A DNA stretch of 43,294 bases from an uncultured Candidatus Woesearchaeota archaeon. Its GTDB lineage: Archaea > Nanobdellota > Nanobdellia > Woesearchaeales > B29-G15. The stretch lies in assembly GCA_903915225.1 (NCBI GenBank), contig CAIWSB010000058.1:1-43294 (forward strand), read 5' to 3'. The notes under the pieces are model-generated. The model did not search any database. It was not told the DNA's origin and worked only from the letters and a program-made list of their open reading frames with translations. Shown here piece after piece: positions 6,419-41,043 of the stretch. The position numbers were made by a program, and so were the translations under genes. Position 1 is the first letter of the stretch, and every line of letters starts with the position of its first letter.

Positions 6419-7895
6419 CCACCTGCGCCTTTATTCCCTTTGCTGTTTTCTCACCTAAGATATATGTCAATTCTGAGAGGCTCACACGCTTGATGTCGCC
6501 AATGTCCTTTATGCGGTTTGTGAACAGCCTACGTGCACGGACACGGCCAATGCCCTTGAGCCTGAGGAGCGGAATCAGCTCATCCTTAACTCCGTATTTG
6601 AGCCTGGTCCTGAGGCGCTCAATCTGGGCGTTATGGGCCTTGAGGTTGAGTATTGTTGCAAGCTCCTTCATTGAGTAGAATAACCAGTCTCCAATCTCTA
6701 GTTTATATCTTGTTTCACCTGGGCGGATGCCAAACTTCTCCATTAGCTCCTCCTCATCTGTCTCATCCATCCACTCCATGAGCATCATTGATGTCTTAAC
6801 TGAGTTGATGAAATCCTCATAGCTTGAATCGAAATAAGAGGGCTCTTCCACAACCAATTCCTCTGCGTGCTCACCTATGAATTCCTGGTATGCGTCGTAT
6901 TCACGCTGCCTCACCCTCAGCAAAGGCCTCATCTCCAGTGTTGAGCAGATTAATTGTACAAATGATAGCTCTGTGGCCTTACTGCCCAGTTTTTTTATTC
7001 CCTCAACAAGTTCATGGGCTGTCAAAGGGTCAAGGTAAAGCTCGGCAACGCGCTTGCCCTGCAGGGTCGCCCTCAGCTTTTTGCTGTTCAAATCTGAGGC
7101 AGATACAAACCCCTCATCAGCTGCCCCTGTTATGAAGCCCCAGCCTTCCAGCATTGAAAGTATTCGCAGGATTGTCCCATTCAGCGCAGCCATATCTTCA
7201 TATTGCTTGGCCCAGAATGTCTTTGAGAAGAACGCAAGGAGCTGCTCCTCGGTCCTGCAAAGCCCTGTTGCGATTAGCGAGAGTAGGTACGTCCGAAGCA
7301 CTGGCTCAACAGCAAGCTTTGAGTAAATATTTTCCGGCTTGCCCTTGATGAACATTTCAATAATTTCATCAGCCTGTCCTTCTGTCTTGGCAATAGCTAT
7401 CGCCTCTCCAAATTCTTCCATGCCCGGGCGCCCTGCGCGGCCTGCTGCCTGGTGGTATTCAAGAACAGGTATGAACTCCATGCCTCGGGCAGTGTACCTT
7501 TTCAAATCGCGGATTATACTCCTGAATGCCGGCAAATCAACGCCTGCTGCCATTGTGGTTGTGCAGCAGATTATCCCAATGTTGCCGCTGCGAAAATTGT
7601 CTTCTATAAGCTCCTTCTGCTTTGGATGAAGCCCTGCATGGTGGAAGGCAATCCCTTTCCTGAGGCACTTGGCAAGCCGCTCGCACTGTGATGTGGGGCG
7701 CGGAAGTGCAGAAAGCGCCTTCTCAGCAAGCTCTGATGGACATGGCTTATTGGCTCTCTGGGCAATGAGTTCTGCGCAACGTTCTGCAGAGGATTTTGTG
7801 GCCACAAATACAAGCGCCTGCTTACCTATCTTAAGGGTATCCAGTGCAAGGTCCACAACAGGCTCCCCGGAGGGCGTATCAATTCGCTTTATCAC
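6381..7895 (-). CDS. Hel308-type helicase, C-terminal half only (split or truncated)
   Basis: A 504-residue protein corresponding to the second half of the archaeal DNA repair helicase Hel308, which is normally about 700 residues. It begins in the linker before RecA domain 2. Motif IV is at 26-34 (QALVFVATK), FHHAGL at 84-89, motif V TTTMAAGVDLPA at 112-123 and motif VI QAAGRAGRPG at 149-158. Winged-helix, ratchet and helix-hairpin-helix regions follow (LLRLKGIGRVRARRLF near 455). RecA domain 1 with Walker A and DExH is missing. An in-frame TAA lies 8 codons before the GTG start, and no matching N-terminal half is nearby. A TATA-like box 26 bp before the GTG suggests it is expressed alone. 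It cannot hydrolyse ATP unless partnered with a separately encoded first half. Confidence 0.85.
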   Translation of the reverse strand: MIKRIDTPSGEPVVDLALDTLKIGKQALVFVATKSSAERCAELIAQRANKPCPSELAEKALSALPRPTSQCERLAKCLRKGIAFHHAGLHPKQKELIEDNFRSGNIGIICCTTTMAAGVDLPAFRSIIRDLKRYTARGMEFIPVLEYHQAAGRAGRPGMEEFGEAIAIAKTEGQADEIIEMFIKGKPENIYSKLAVEPVLRTYLLSLIATGLCRTEEQLLAFFSKTFWAKQYEDMAALNGTILRILSMLEGWGFITGAADEGFVSASDLNSKKLRATLQGKRVAELYLDPLTAHELVEGIKKLGSKATELSFVQLICSTLEMRPLLRVRQREYDAYQEFIGEHAEELVVEEPSYFDSSYEDFINSVKTSMMLMEWMDETDEEELMEKFGIRPGETRYKLEIGDWLFYSMKELATILNLKAHNAQIERLRTRLKYGVKDELIPLLRLKGIGRVRARRLFTNRIKDIGDIKRVSLSELTYILGEKTAKGIKAQVGEGEFKEELEDS

Positions 7896-20682: not shown

Positions 20683-20827
20683 GTAGCAACAACTTTGGCG
20701 GCCGTCGTCGCTTACGCTCCTCCCCGGGCACCCCGTGGGGGGCGCTCAGAAATCATTCGGATTTCTGGCGTCCATCGGCTGCGCCTCTGGGCATCCCCCA
20801 CCCGGGCGGCGCCACTATTACCGTTGC
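20683..20827 (+). ncRNA. Structured intergenic element R1 (candidate small RNA or palindromic repeat)
   Basis: This GC-rich block fills the gap between sec61-beta and rfcL and has no convincing ORF. It opens GTAGCAACAACTTTGGCGGC, then CGTCGTCGC, and closes CCCGGGCGGCGCCA...CCGTTGC. TGGCG (20696-20700) can pair with CGCCA (20810-20814), and CCCGGG (20723-20728) with CCCGGG (20801-20806). Inside are CCCC-GT-GGGG (20731-20740) and a perfect 7-bp hairpin AGAAATC/GATTTCT (20748-20766). It aligns with element R2 at 26.3 kb over the first ~60 bases, and with R3 at 34.4 kb at both ends. It could be a noncoding RNA family or a miniature mobile repeat. Because it lies directly upstream of rfcL in the same orientation, a leader role there is also possible. 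Confidence 0.55.
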
Positions 20828-20884
20828 GAAAATTAAGACAATTGTTTAAAAAAATTAATAAAGTGTCAGAGCTTATTTTTGCAG

Positions 20885-26286: not shown

Positions 26287-26379
26287 GCGGCAACAATATT
26301 GGCGGCTGTCCTCGCGTTGCTCGTCGCCGGCCACCCCGTAGGGGGCAATCCCCCGGCCGGCCAGCGCCAATGTTGCTGC
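26287..26379 (+). ncRNA. Structured intergenic element R2 (candidate small RNA or palindromic repeat)
   Basis: A ~93-nt near-palindrome. The outer stem GCAACA/TGTTGC and TTGGCG/CGCCAA is interrupted by a 3-base bulge (ATA). The inner part has GCCGGCC pairing with GGCCGGC around ACCCCGTAGGGGGC, which folds as CCCC-GTA-GGGG. It aligns with R1 over about 60 bases, from TTGGCGGC through TCGC and GCTC to ACCCCGT.GGGGGC. It lies between two minus-strand genes with no ORF. T-rich sequence follows its 3' end (ATTATTTTATTATA). Confidence 0.55.
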
Positions 26380-26434
26380 TGGATGCATTATGGGATTATT
26401 TTATTATATAGATATAGTTATCTGAAAAAAAGGC

Positions 26435-34353: not shown

Positions 34354-34500
34354 GCAGCAACTCTGGCGCCGCCCGGGCGTGGGAAGCTAAGTTTAGCAAC
34401 TATCGGAATTTCGATTTAGTTGCGCCTCAGGGCTTTATGCCCTGACCCGCTACAACTAGGCGGAACCAGTTGCGACGACGGCCACCATTATTTTTGCTAC
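34354..34500 (-). ncRNA. Structured intergenic element R3 (candidate small RNA or palindromic repeat)
   Basis: On the minus strand it starts GTAGCAA with TGGTGGCCGTCGTCGC, as in R1, and ends CCCGGGCGGCGCCA then GTTGCTGC, shared with R1 and R2. The middle differs. It has a perfect 7-bp hairpin TCAGGGC/GCCCTGA (34427-34445) and a 10-bp hairpin GCAACT-ATCG paired with CGAT-AGTTGC with a two-base bulge (34396-34423). A CAACT-GG/CC-AGTTG hairpin is also present. Conserved ends with variable inner hairpins suggest selection on structure. It fills the gap between the two pilin-like operons. No ORF is evident. Confidence 0.55.
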
Positions 34501-34510
34501 ATTCTAAGAA

Positions 34511-37268: not shown

Positions 37269-38510
37269 TTACCCACTCGGGAGCTCAAGTCTCCATCCAT
37301 TTGTGATGCTTGAAACCTTCGAAGGCGAAGTAGACATATTGAAGAATATTGTCAAAAGCGGATCGCCAGATATCCCATCGATTGAGAGGGTATGACGGCC
37401 AGGGGATATTGGAAAGTTAGTCTGGAAAGTGGTTCTTGAATCTGTTGAAGCCTTGAAGTAGTTAACAAGTGGATACCCATCAAACCTCACCACCATATCC
37501 TTCCTATATGTATAAACCACCTCAATCGAGTTGATTACCCCAGACGCATTGCTCACTTCAAGGATATGCGTTTTTGAACTGCCAACTTGCCACGCGAGTT
37601 TATGCGATGTTGCCTCAACATAATCGCTCTTTTTATCATTGTCCGAATCTGCCTTGTTATAGCGCGTCCCCAACATTTTTTCATAGTAGTCATTTAGCCC
37701 GTCGGCATCTGTGTCTGGCTTTATTGGCGATGAGCCGTATGCAATCTCAACCTTGTCATCAAGCCGGTCGCCATCTGTGTCCCTTCTTACGGGGCTTGTT
37801 TTGTAGGTTTTTACTTCCTCATAATCATCTAAGCCATCACCATCTGTATCTTTTACCCGAGGATTGCTGCCAGCCCTTACCTCTTCTGGATCAGTCAGCT
37901 TGTCGCCATCAAAATCCTTGCTTGTTATGGGGGTGCCAAGCCTCGCCTCCTCAGCATCAGCAAGCCCGTCATCATCCGAATCTCCCTTCAATGGGTTTGA
38001 ATGAAAGAGCTTGACTTCCACATAATCGGTAATCCCATCACTATCAGTATCCTTAACCAGGGGGTTGGTTTTCGCTCTATACTCATCATAATCTGAGAGC
38101 TTGTCAAAATCGCTGTCTGGCAGATAGGGTGAGCTGCCAAATTTAATCTCTTGACCATCACTCAGCCCGTCACCATCCTGGTCTGCCTTATTAGCTAGTG
38201 TCTTGTAGGTATATATCTCATCAAAATCAATAAGCTTGTCGCCGTCAGTGTCAATCCGGAAGCCAAAAAGCCCCTTGATGTATTGGCCAAAGGCTTCGCC
38301 ACGATGGTAACCTCCCCCTTTAACAAGTTCAGAGATGGAAATCCTTCCATTCTTGTCCCCATCAAGAATTAGCTCCTGCTTTGCAGGGTGAATAGAGAAG
38401 AATATGCTTGCAGCTGTTACCAGAGTGATGCCAGCTATTGCTAGTTTACCCCAGTTTCTTCTCAGGAAATTCCTAGGTTCAATCTTCTTCTCTAGGCCTG
38501 TATCTGCCAT
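37269..38510 (-). CDS. Thrombospondin type 3 repeat calcium-binding surface protein (paralogue 1)
   Basis: A 413-residue membrane-anchored protein. The N-terminal cytoplasmic part (EPRNFLRRNWGK) precedes a single helix (LAIAGITLVTAASIFFSI). From about residue 45 to 300 there are roughly ten Asp-rich repeats of the DTDGDGLDDYEEV type, each a calcium-binding loop followed by a short helix. These form a stiff calcium-loaded rod. The C-terminal ~110 residues form a beta-type domain. I use ATG 38510 with GTGAG 7 bases upstream rather than an in-frame GTG four codons earlier. The neighbouring upstream gene is a close paralogue in tandem. Confidence 0.85.
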   Translation of the reverse strand: MADTGLEKKIEPRNFLRRNWGKLAIAGITLVTAASIFFSIHPAKQELILDGDKNGRISISELVKGGGYHRGEAFGQYIKGLFGFRIDTDGDKLIDFDEIYTYKTLANKADQDGDGLSDGQEIKFGSSPYLPDSDFDKLSDYDEYRAKTNPLVKDTDSDGITDYVEVKLFHSNPLKGDSDDDGLADAEEARLGTPITSKDFDGDKLTDPEEVRAGSNPRVKDTDGDGLDDYEEVKTYKTSPVRRDTDGDRLDDKVEIAYGSSPIKPDTDADGLNDYYEKMLGTRYNKADSDNDKKSDYVEATSHKLAWQVGSSKTHILEVSNASGVINSIEVVYTYRKDMVVRFDGYPLVNYFKASTDSRTTFQTNFPISPGRHTLSIDGISGDPLLTIFFNMSTSPSKVSSITNGWRLELPSG

Positions 38511-38561
38511 GCGTAAACTCACTTAAGTTTGACATATTATGTGTTTTTATCCGTGTTTACC

Positions 38562-39812
38562 TTATCCTGACGGAAGCGAAATCCTCCAACCCTCCTGGGT
38601 TTTAACTGGTTCGCTTGATGGGGTCGTTGTGATGTAATAAGTCAAATACATAAAAGGATTTTGTTTGAGCCCGGTAACAGAGACTGTGTGGCGCCCGGGA
38701 CCCAGGGGAATATTCGTGGGGATCGATTGGGTCCAGTTCGTTGTCGAGGGGATGTAATTTAAAATGAGGGAGCTATCAACCCATAGCATCATGTTCTGCC
38801 TAGCCGTATGATTGTTCCAAAGAAAGACCGAAGTAAGAGTCCCAGAGGTGTTGCTCATCTCAATGGAGCGGGTCCATGCGCTACCCACCTGCCATTCTAT
38901 CACTTTTTGCGTTGCCTCTTGATAATCACTCTTTTGATCCCTATCTGAGTCCGCTGAGTCAAACCGTGTGCCCAATAATTTTTCATATTGGTCGTTTAGC
39001 CCGTCACCATCCGTGTCTGCTTTTATTGGCGATGAGCCATATGTAATCTCAACTTTGTCATCAAGCCCATCCCCATCTGTATCTCTTCTACTGGGGCTGG
39101 TGCCGTATGTTTTTACTTCTTCATAATCATTCAGTCCATCCCCGTCCGTATCTTTTACCCTTGGGTTGCTACCATACCTAATCTCCTCACTATCTGTTAG
39201 CTTGTCACCATCTATGTCTGCATTGTTGATTGGGGTGCCAAGCCTCACCTCCTCAGCATCAGTGAGCCCGTCACCATCTGAATCTGCCTTATTTGGGTTT
39301 GAATGATAAACCTTGACTTCATCATAATCTATGAGACCGTCACGATCTGAATCACTAGCATGGGGATTAGTACCTGCTCTAAATTCTTCGTAATCATTGA
39401 GTTTATCAAAGTCTGTGTCTGGCATGTATGGTGAGCTGCCAAACTTAATCTCCAACCCATCGTTCAGCCCGTCACCATCTGTGTCTCCCTTATTGATGGC
39501 TGTTTTGTATGTATGAACCTCATCAAAATCAATTAGTTTGTCGCGGTCAATGTCAATGCTAAAGCCAAAAAGCCCTTTAATGTATTGGCCAAAGGCCTCA
39601 CCAGGGTGATAGCCACCCCATTTGACAAGCTCAGAAATTGAAATCCTTCCATTATGGTCCATGTCAAGAAGCTGCTCCTGTTTTGCAGGGTTAATTGAGA
39701 AGAATATGCCTGCAGCTGTTATCAGAGTGACACCAGCAATGGTTAGTTTGCCCCAATTCCTTTTAAGGAAATTTCTCGGCTCAACCCTTTGTTCCAGGTC
39801 TGTATGCGCCAT
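38562..39812 (-). CDS. Thrombospondin type 3 repeat calcium-binding surface protein (paralogue 2)
   Basis: A 416-residue paralogue of the downstream gene with identical layout: cytoplasmic EPRNFLKRNWGK, a membrane helix, about ten Asp-rich repeats such as DTDGDGLNDYEEVKTYGTSP, and a C-terminal beta-type domain. Much of the repeat region is near-identical between the two copies, while the C-terminal domains have diverged. That fits a recent duplication with differing ligands. ATG 39812 overlaps the upstream gene by 32 bases and has GTGAG upstream. The shared calcium rods suggest a cell-surface or adhesion role outside the membrane. Confidence 0.85.
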   Translation of the reverse strand: MAHTDLEQRVEPRNFLKRNWGKLTIAGVTLITAAGIFFSINPAKQEQLLDMDHNGRISISELVKWGGYHPGEAFGQYIKGLFGFSIDIDRDKLIDFDEVHTYKTAINKGDTDGDGLNDGLEIKFGSSPYMPDTDFDKLNDYEEFRAGTNPHASDSDRDGLIDYDEVKVYHSNPNKADSDGDGLTDAEEVRLGTPINNADIDGDKLTDSEEIRYGSNPRVKDTDGDGLNDYEEVKTYGTSPSRRDTDGDGLDDKVEITYGSSPIKADTDGDGLNDQYEKLLGTRFDSADSDRDQKSDYQEATQKVIEWQVGSAWTRSIEMSNTSGTLTSVFLWNNHTARQNMMLWVDSSLILNYIPSTTNWTQSIPTNIPLGPGRHTVSVTGLKQNPFMYLTYYITTTPSSEPVKTQEGWRISLPSG

Positions 39813-41043
39813 TTGTAAGCTCACTTATCGCCTTCTTTACGTTCCTCTCATAATCTGCTTGTTTAGCCGAGTTGCGGGACTTTGTCATCAGCTTCTCAGT
39901 GAGCAGGGAAAGCCCAACGCCCAGCACAGCCCCTCCAAACCCTACTCCCAAGAAATAAAGTGGATTGCCTGTAGCCATGCCTAGACCAATACCGGGCAAG
40001 CCCATAGCGCCCCAACCAAGCTTGTGGTTCAGCCGAATGGGCTCCAATAGAGCTGGTGTTGGCAGTTCAATGCGCTCTGCGTTCAAAAATTCAATGTTGT
40101 AATTCGGCTCCTGGCTTGCACGGTCCTCTTTGCGAAAATAATAGTCCACTTGGGAACGGGAAATCTCATGCCCATCCATTCCATCAAATAAAATATCCCC
40201 GCGAGTCTCAATAATTACCTTGTGCATGTAATTCTCTCGAATAAACTCAGTTGGAGAAGTTGCGTAAACAGTTTGCTGAGGGGCACTGGCTTCGCAGATG
40301 AGTGTGATTGGCACTTGGAAAACCGGGTAATACCACATCTCTGCACCAGGCCAAGGGATTGATAATGCTTCCCTAATTACAATCTTATGGGTGGCTTTCA
40401 AAAGCCCGCTTCTGGACATGTCTGGCTTGCCAATTAACCCCCCGTGTTTGGCCAGCCAAAACCACCGTGCAATTGATTTTATCTCTGATTTTGTTACAAG
40501 GGTTGCAAAGCCGTCCAAGGCTGGGTCAAACCTTGTGTCCTGCGACAACTCACCTGTGTAAAGGTTTTTTGCCTGGATGAGCTCACTTCTAAAATCAACT
40601 GAAAATGGGAAGTAATTTAATACGACCTCGCCCGCAATGTAATCCCTTTGAGTAATACTTATCTCCTCTTTCCAGATATTCTCCGGGGCGGGTGATGATG
40701 CGGGCAGATTAGATAAGAGCTGCTTGAGAAGCTTACCGGTCTTACCTGAAGGTAATGGCCATTCGGGGCGAGAATTTTTTGCTAAAATCTCACTACCTAT
40801 TATTTTGCCCTTGTCTTTAACTGCAGAGGTTATTACAGAGAATTTTGAAAGGAGCTCTCCATAACCTTGCGCGTTGCCAAAAACACCTTCAATGGAATGG
40901 CCATTATTGTGTTCAAGAATCTCTGATACATTACTACTAATGTTGCCCCATGAAAATCCGGGTGACAAAGAAAATACGCCTGAAGGTAAGGCAACCTCGC
41001 CACCAAAAGGTGCACCATCCAAAAGCTCCTGAAGATTTGGCAT
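39781..41043 (-). CDS. Uncharacterised protein with C-terminal membrane hairpin
   Basis: A 420-residue protein of unknown family. The first ~350 residues are soluble, with no recognised motif. The C-terminal part contains a glycine-rich hydrophobic region (GAMGLPGIGLGMATGN, then FLGVGFGGAVLGVGLSLL) that likely forms one or two membrane helices, then a basic tail. It is the first gene of a probable operon with the two calcium-binding proteins, overlapping the next by 32 bases. A TTTAAA box near 41077-41084 and GGGGGA before the ATG give a short leader. Its position suggests a membrane partner of the surface rods. No function is assigned. Confidence 0.72.
   Translation of the reverse strand: MPNLQELLDGAPFGGEVALPSGVFSLSPGFSWGNISSNVSEILEHNNGHSIEGVFGNAQGYGELLSKFSVITSAVKDKGKIIGSEILAKNSRPEWPLPSGKTGKLLKQLLSNLPASSPAPENIWKEEISITQRDYIAGEVVLNYFPFSVDFRSELIQAKNLYTGELSQDTRFDPALDGFATLVTKSEIKSIARWFWLAKHGGLIGKPDMSRSGLLKATHKIVIREALSIPWPGAEMWYYPVFQVPITLICEASAPQQTVYATSPTEFIRENYMHKVIIETRGDILFDGMDGHEISRSQVDYYFRKEDRASQEPNYNIEFLNAERIELPTPALLEPIRLNHKLGWGAMGLPGIGLGMATGNPLYFLGVGFGGAVLGVGLSLLTEKLMTKSRNSAKQADYERNVKKAISELTNGAYRPGTKG

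Follow-up and report, generated by a model that had tools for sequence, protein, structure and literature searches.

The three related elements R1, R2 and R3 in the window, by which we mean the whole 43,294-nt stretch of DNA analysed here, are probably (a probability of roughly 0.7) copies of a non-autonomous family of mobile palindromic DNA that works like the REP/BIME repeats of bacteria. We propose that one strand, when exposed as single-stranded DNA, would fold into a hairpin that has bulges and carries further hairpins at its side, and that an enzyme supplied in trans would recognise the shape of this hairpin, namely the bulges of its 5' arm and a conserved C-G-C centre. Such an enzyme would move or copy the hairpin to new intergenic sites without creating target-site duplications, and tail-to-tail doublets would arise in the same process. 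Because either arm could template the other and shape would be what matters, the sequences of the arms could drift.

Membership and anatomy of the family

The window is contig C58 of a 1.69-Mb, 116-contig assembly that is 97% complete. Most named relatives of its RfcL protein come from Woesearchaeota/Nanoarchaeota MAGs, which makes a DPANN archaeon of the Woesearchaeales type a very probable host. The copies within it, and the parts of R2 to which we refer below, are as follows.

R1, 20683..20828, + strand: long-form copy with extra hairpins in its central loop (76.9 bits; DNA fold)
R2, 26287..26381, + strand: short-form copy flanked by a YdjM-like gene and rpa, these neighbours being assigned by Pfam (100 bits)
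R3, about 34355..34502, - strand: divergent long-form copy (29.2 bits, E=3e-5)
R2 outer stem P1, 5' arm, 26287..26304, + strand: GCGGCAACA, bulge ATA (26296-26298), TTGGCG (DNA fold)
R2 outer stem P1, 3' arm, 26365..26379, + strand: CGCCAA-TGTTGCTGC (DNA fold)
R2 inner stem P2, 26326..26361, + strand: GCCGGCC (26326-26332) pairing with GGCCGGC (26355-26361)

R1 lies between a short minus-strand ORF, which we take to be Sec61-beta/SecG-like, and rfcL (+). All three copies align end to end as one family, with the ends of R3 matching both ends of R1, inverted, at 84% and 88%. When a covariance model was built from 18 copies of the same genome, with R2 included and R1 and R3 left out, it scored R2 at 100 bits (E=9e-26), R1 at 77 bits (E=5e-19) and R3 at 29 bits (E=3e-5), and the similarity of the three is far beyond chance. 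Of the 49 places that the model found across the 1.69-Mb genome at E<=1, 47 reach E<1e-3, and R1 used simply as a DNA query already returned 37 matching pieces. An earlier note on this DNA had described a family of structured elements that are dispersed between genes and conserved at their ends, and had called for a covariance search for further copies, and on both counts the family has proved to be real. A 23-base stretch within an ORF at window positions 7576-7598 also resembles the 3' end of R1 (83%), probably by chance.

The family ranges from about 95 to 150 nt, the common short form being ~95 nt and long forms such as R1 carrying additional hairpins within the central loop. Judged by a simple ORF model, the copies are essentially all intergenic, and where some of them overlap an ORF, it is of a type that models this simple tend to predict falsely. 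The copies occur in every gene configuration (++ 19, -+ 11, -- 10, +- 7) and in mixed orientation to the genes around them, and no gene was found to recur beside them. A general role as terminators was rejected, given that 11 of 47 copies sit between divergent genes. Elsewhere in the window, at 37269-39824 (-), two adjacent paralogues contain bacterial thrombospondin type 3 (calcium-binding) repeats according to Pfam, and a third ORF of like length beside them (39781-41043) matched no Pfam family.

Folded as DNA, R2 consists of P1, a side hairpin P3 and the inner stem P2, which encloses the conserved ACCCCGTA-GGGGG-CAAT-CCCCC centre. The outer stem had been described earlier as nearly perfect with a single 3-base bulge; near perfect it is, and the 3-base bulge is there, but it is not single, as P1 also has a 1-nt bulge (G at 26305, directly after the 5' arm), both bulges being on the 5' arm. 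The outer arms of 89 copies taken from other genomes vary widely yet remain complementary (AAAATCCAGCCA, AAACACCACCA, CGCACGCCACC, GCAGCAACAA and others), and most gaps in the P1 alignment of these copies lie on the 5' arm, which has 89 of one base and 45 of three bases, the corresponding numbers for the 3' arm being 19 and 4. Bulges on the 5' arm recur throughout the family. An identical 65-nt inner hairpin piece is set inside different outer stems in R1 and in a copy (L003) that lies at the end of contig C92; the family is therefore modular, and the two copies reflect modular exchange inside elements. At the centre of some copies the strands CCCC, GGGG and CCCC covary (CTCC-GGAG-CCCTC in 10 copies), as if one G strand could pair with either C strand, or as if a triplex formed.

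Close pairs of elements (<150 nt apart), all from other genomes, the copies of the host genome being single, have a marked polarity, with 28 of 29 tail-to-tail, one head-to-head and none direct. The members of these doublets are either spaced by up to 67 nt or overlap in their 3' arms by 22-28 nt.

Distribution and occupancy of matching sites

Of 99 genomes of the order that were searched with the covariance model, 28 carry copies, as many as 27 in a single genome other than the host, while neither of two genomes of the same genus carries any. Among the positives listed in broader samples, all belong to the same order. The family is abundant, and dozens of family-level lineages share its conserved fold. 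Copies in viral contigs, phages or plasmids were sought and none was confirmed.

Filled and empty sites were compared between species that are only 70-80% identical, so exact junctions are uncertain and loss is not always separable from gain; with this reservation, synteny places R1 as absent upstream of rfcL at the matching site in two genomes (G001 and G002) and reveals a shorter gap at the site of R3 in G001. Similarly, G214 carries a copy where the matching site in G282, 77% identical around it, is empty, and G246 carries a doublet where the site in G203 is empty; conversely, G203 has a copy at a site where G246 has none, with borders that are less certain. At one further site matches occur in both G246 and G203 at almost the same position, and thus some copies may be inherited, this one vertically. 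A second set of weaker matches in these two genomes (L205-L220; 82-102 nt, 27-40 bits) possibly represents an older or distinct subfamily.

No target-site duplications flank the copies, words shared between flanks showing no excess over shuffled pairings. The earlier note had offered a miniature mobile element as its main alternative, with target-site duplications as the sign of mobility; the element fits better than the small RNA that the note preferred, even though the proposed sign is absent. This absence also bears on the kind of element involved. An ordinary MITE, whose terminal inverted repeats allow a DDE transposase to move it, would be expected to be small, palindromic, multi-copy and intergenic, as these elements are. 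On the other hand, the terminal sequences differ widely between copies and between genomes, and a conserved internal architecture with conserved bulges is unexpected of a MITE, which, together with the missing duplications, makes this an unlikely explanation.

Pairing as DNA or as RNA

The earlier note had also suggested looking for compensatory base changes across copies, and these are plentiful. In an alignment that was fitted to the model, and so favours the structure, we counted 657 double changes against 201 in shuffles, with a covariation score of 0.676 compared to 0.177 for shuffled alignments and at most 0.096 when the pairing partners were slid. P2 is the most strongly covarying helix among the copies of the host genome, with 27 double and no one-sided changes. 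The shared fold is thus strongly supported by the double changes. Even strong covariation among repeats is not, however, proof in itself of a functional RNA.

In RNA stems, G-U pairs are expected to be the main exceptions to canonical pairing. The stem mismatches of the elements comprise 40 G.T and 45 A.C over all helices (36 and 33 in P1, 4 and 12 in P2 and P3 together, by our own parsing of the stems, on which the helix counts depend), whereas a small control set from the same sequences, the acceptor and T stems of 12 tRNAs, gave 9 G.T and no A.C, a difference with p=0.003. Given that G.T is no commoner than A.C, unlike in the tRNAs, the pairing is kept in DNA, either through selection on the hairpin or through copying of one arm from the other. 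If copying of the arms were the only process at work, the bulges should have been lost, and therefore we infer that the bulges are under selection.

These data weigh against the proposal of the earlier note that the elements are a new family of independently transcribed, structured small RNAs. The fold with its compensatory changes is real and the copies do lie between genes, both of which speak for such RNAs. A search of the window and 20 related loci with Rfam at gathering scores matched only tRNAs. This lack of an Rfam match counts against the proposal, as do the absence of a G-U preference in the stems, the mixed orientation relative to genes, and a presence that is patchy, lineage-specific and variable at matching sites of related species. 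The TATA-like boxes noted upstream are visible, but they are not a feature of the family: at 20-30 nt upstream of the 49 copies TATA-like hexamers show no enrichment, there is no promoter signal at a fixed distance, and in the intergenic region of R1, before rfcL, gene promoters are expected anyway. We consequently consider small RNAs improbable.

A DNA site useful to the host, such as a nucleoid or topology element, which recombination had spread and selection retained, would account for bulges that are conserved despite drift in the arms and for the intergenic placement of the copies, and it has a precedent in bacterial REPs, which bind several host proteins according to one report (PMC2817692). 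Given that ~70% of the sampled genomes of the order lack the family, those of the same genus included, it is quite improbable that the elements owe their presence to such a role.

Candidate mobilising enzymes and known systems

The mobile-hairpin reading calls for an enzyme acting in trans, and several candidates were sought. Y1 transposases were rejected as the mobiliser, as none was found in the host at E<=10 or in five other high-copy genomes, and no copy of the element lies within 1.5 kb of any of 30 Y1 loci; the weak association between Y1 and the family (16/28 vs 18/71, p=0.004) probably reflects general mobile-element load. No TnpB was found in the host or in any high-copy genome tested. 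Tyrosine recombinases, scanned as one Pfam family, do not track the elements, and two genomes with many copies, G034 and G047, both incomplete assemblies, yielded no match to them. The host may have lost its mobilising enzyme, or a different class of enzyme may be at work.

The attC sites of integrons, folded single strands that are used by a tyrosine recombinase and are reported in Archaea too (PMC9668308), have a similar anatomy (paired arms, an unpaired spacer, an extrahelical base on one arm and a variable tip) with arms that likewise vary in sequence, but attC-like sites are a most unlikely identity for elements that are dispersed or paired tail-to-tail instead of forming direct cassette arrays, whose arms in the host genome do not, by our own reading, fit the core-site motifs RYYYAAC/GTTRRRY, and which are numerous in G034 and G047.

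It is conceivable, and we advance it only tentatively, that the family represents a new class of mobile DNA that is read by shape and not by sequence, spreading horizontally in DPANN archaea while its arms change freely, and served by an enzyme belonging neither to the Y1 transposases nor to the known integrases. In bacteria, mobile repeats that are short and palindromic have been described in detail, and our literature search found no description of them in DPANN archaea. The family is in any case a good test case for structure-read mobility.

The ends of IS200/IS605 elements, and miniature elements derived from these, resemble the family in being hairpins with extrahelical bases and in the lack of target-site duplication. 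A further likeness is that a short motif immediately precedes the 5' end, here T[TC][GC]A at -4 in 15 of the 49 copies of the host genome; ISDra2 uses TTGAT. The family differs from IS200/IS605 in that its host is without tnpA, that tnpB occurs in no high-copy genome tested, and that there is no cargo gene. In both IS200/IS605 ends and REPs, the palindrome is read by the enzyme as a folded single strand (PMC6006769).

Among known kinds of element, the closest is the bacterial REP/BIME/REPIN repeat with its RAYT (TnpA_REP), which comprises short palindromes scattered between genes in numerous copies per genome, patchily distributed and some of them bulged (PMC3733652, PMC6006769), and which often forms inverted dimers with few head-to-tail pairs (PMC3733652). 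Compared with the 20-40 nt of REPs, the elements described here are long (~95-150 nt), with several helices and with 3-nt and 1-nt bulges on the 5' arm; their arms change sequence between copies while staying paired, and their host is archaeal. They also lack a constant GTAG/CGTC tag at the palindrome's foot, GACG being found inside the elements, before the P3 hairpin, in 60 of 89 copies of other genomes and 4 of 49 copies of the host. Although the family thus fails two defining features of REPs, the foot tag and the cognate RAYT, the latter absent from the host, it is REP-like in behaviour, consisting of dispersed, intergenic, multi-copy palindromes (49 places) whose close pairs are inverted (28/29 tail-to-tail) and in no case direct.
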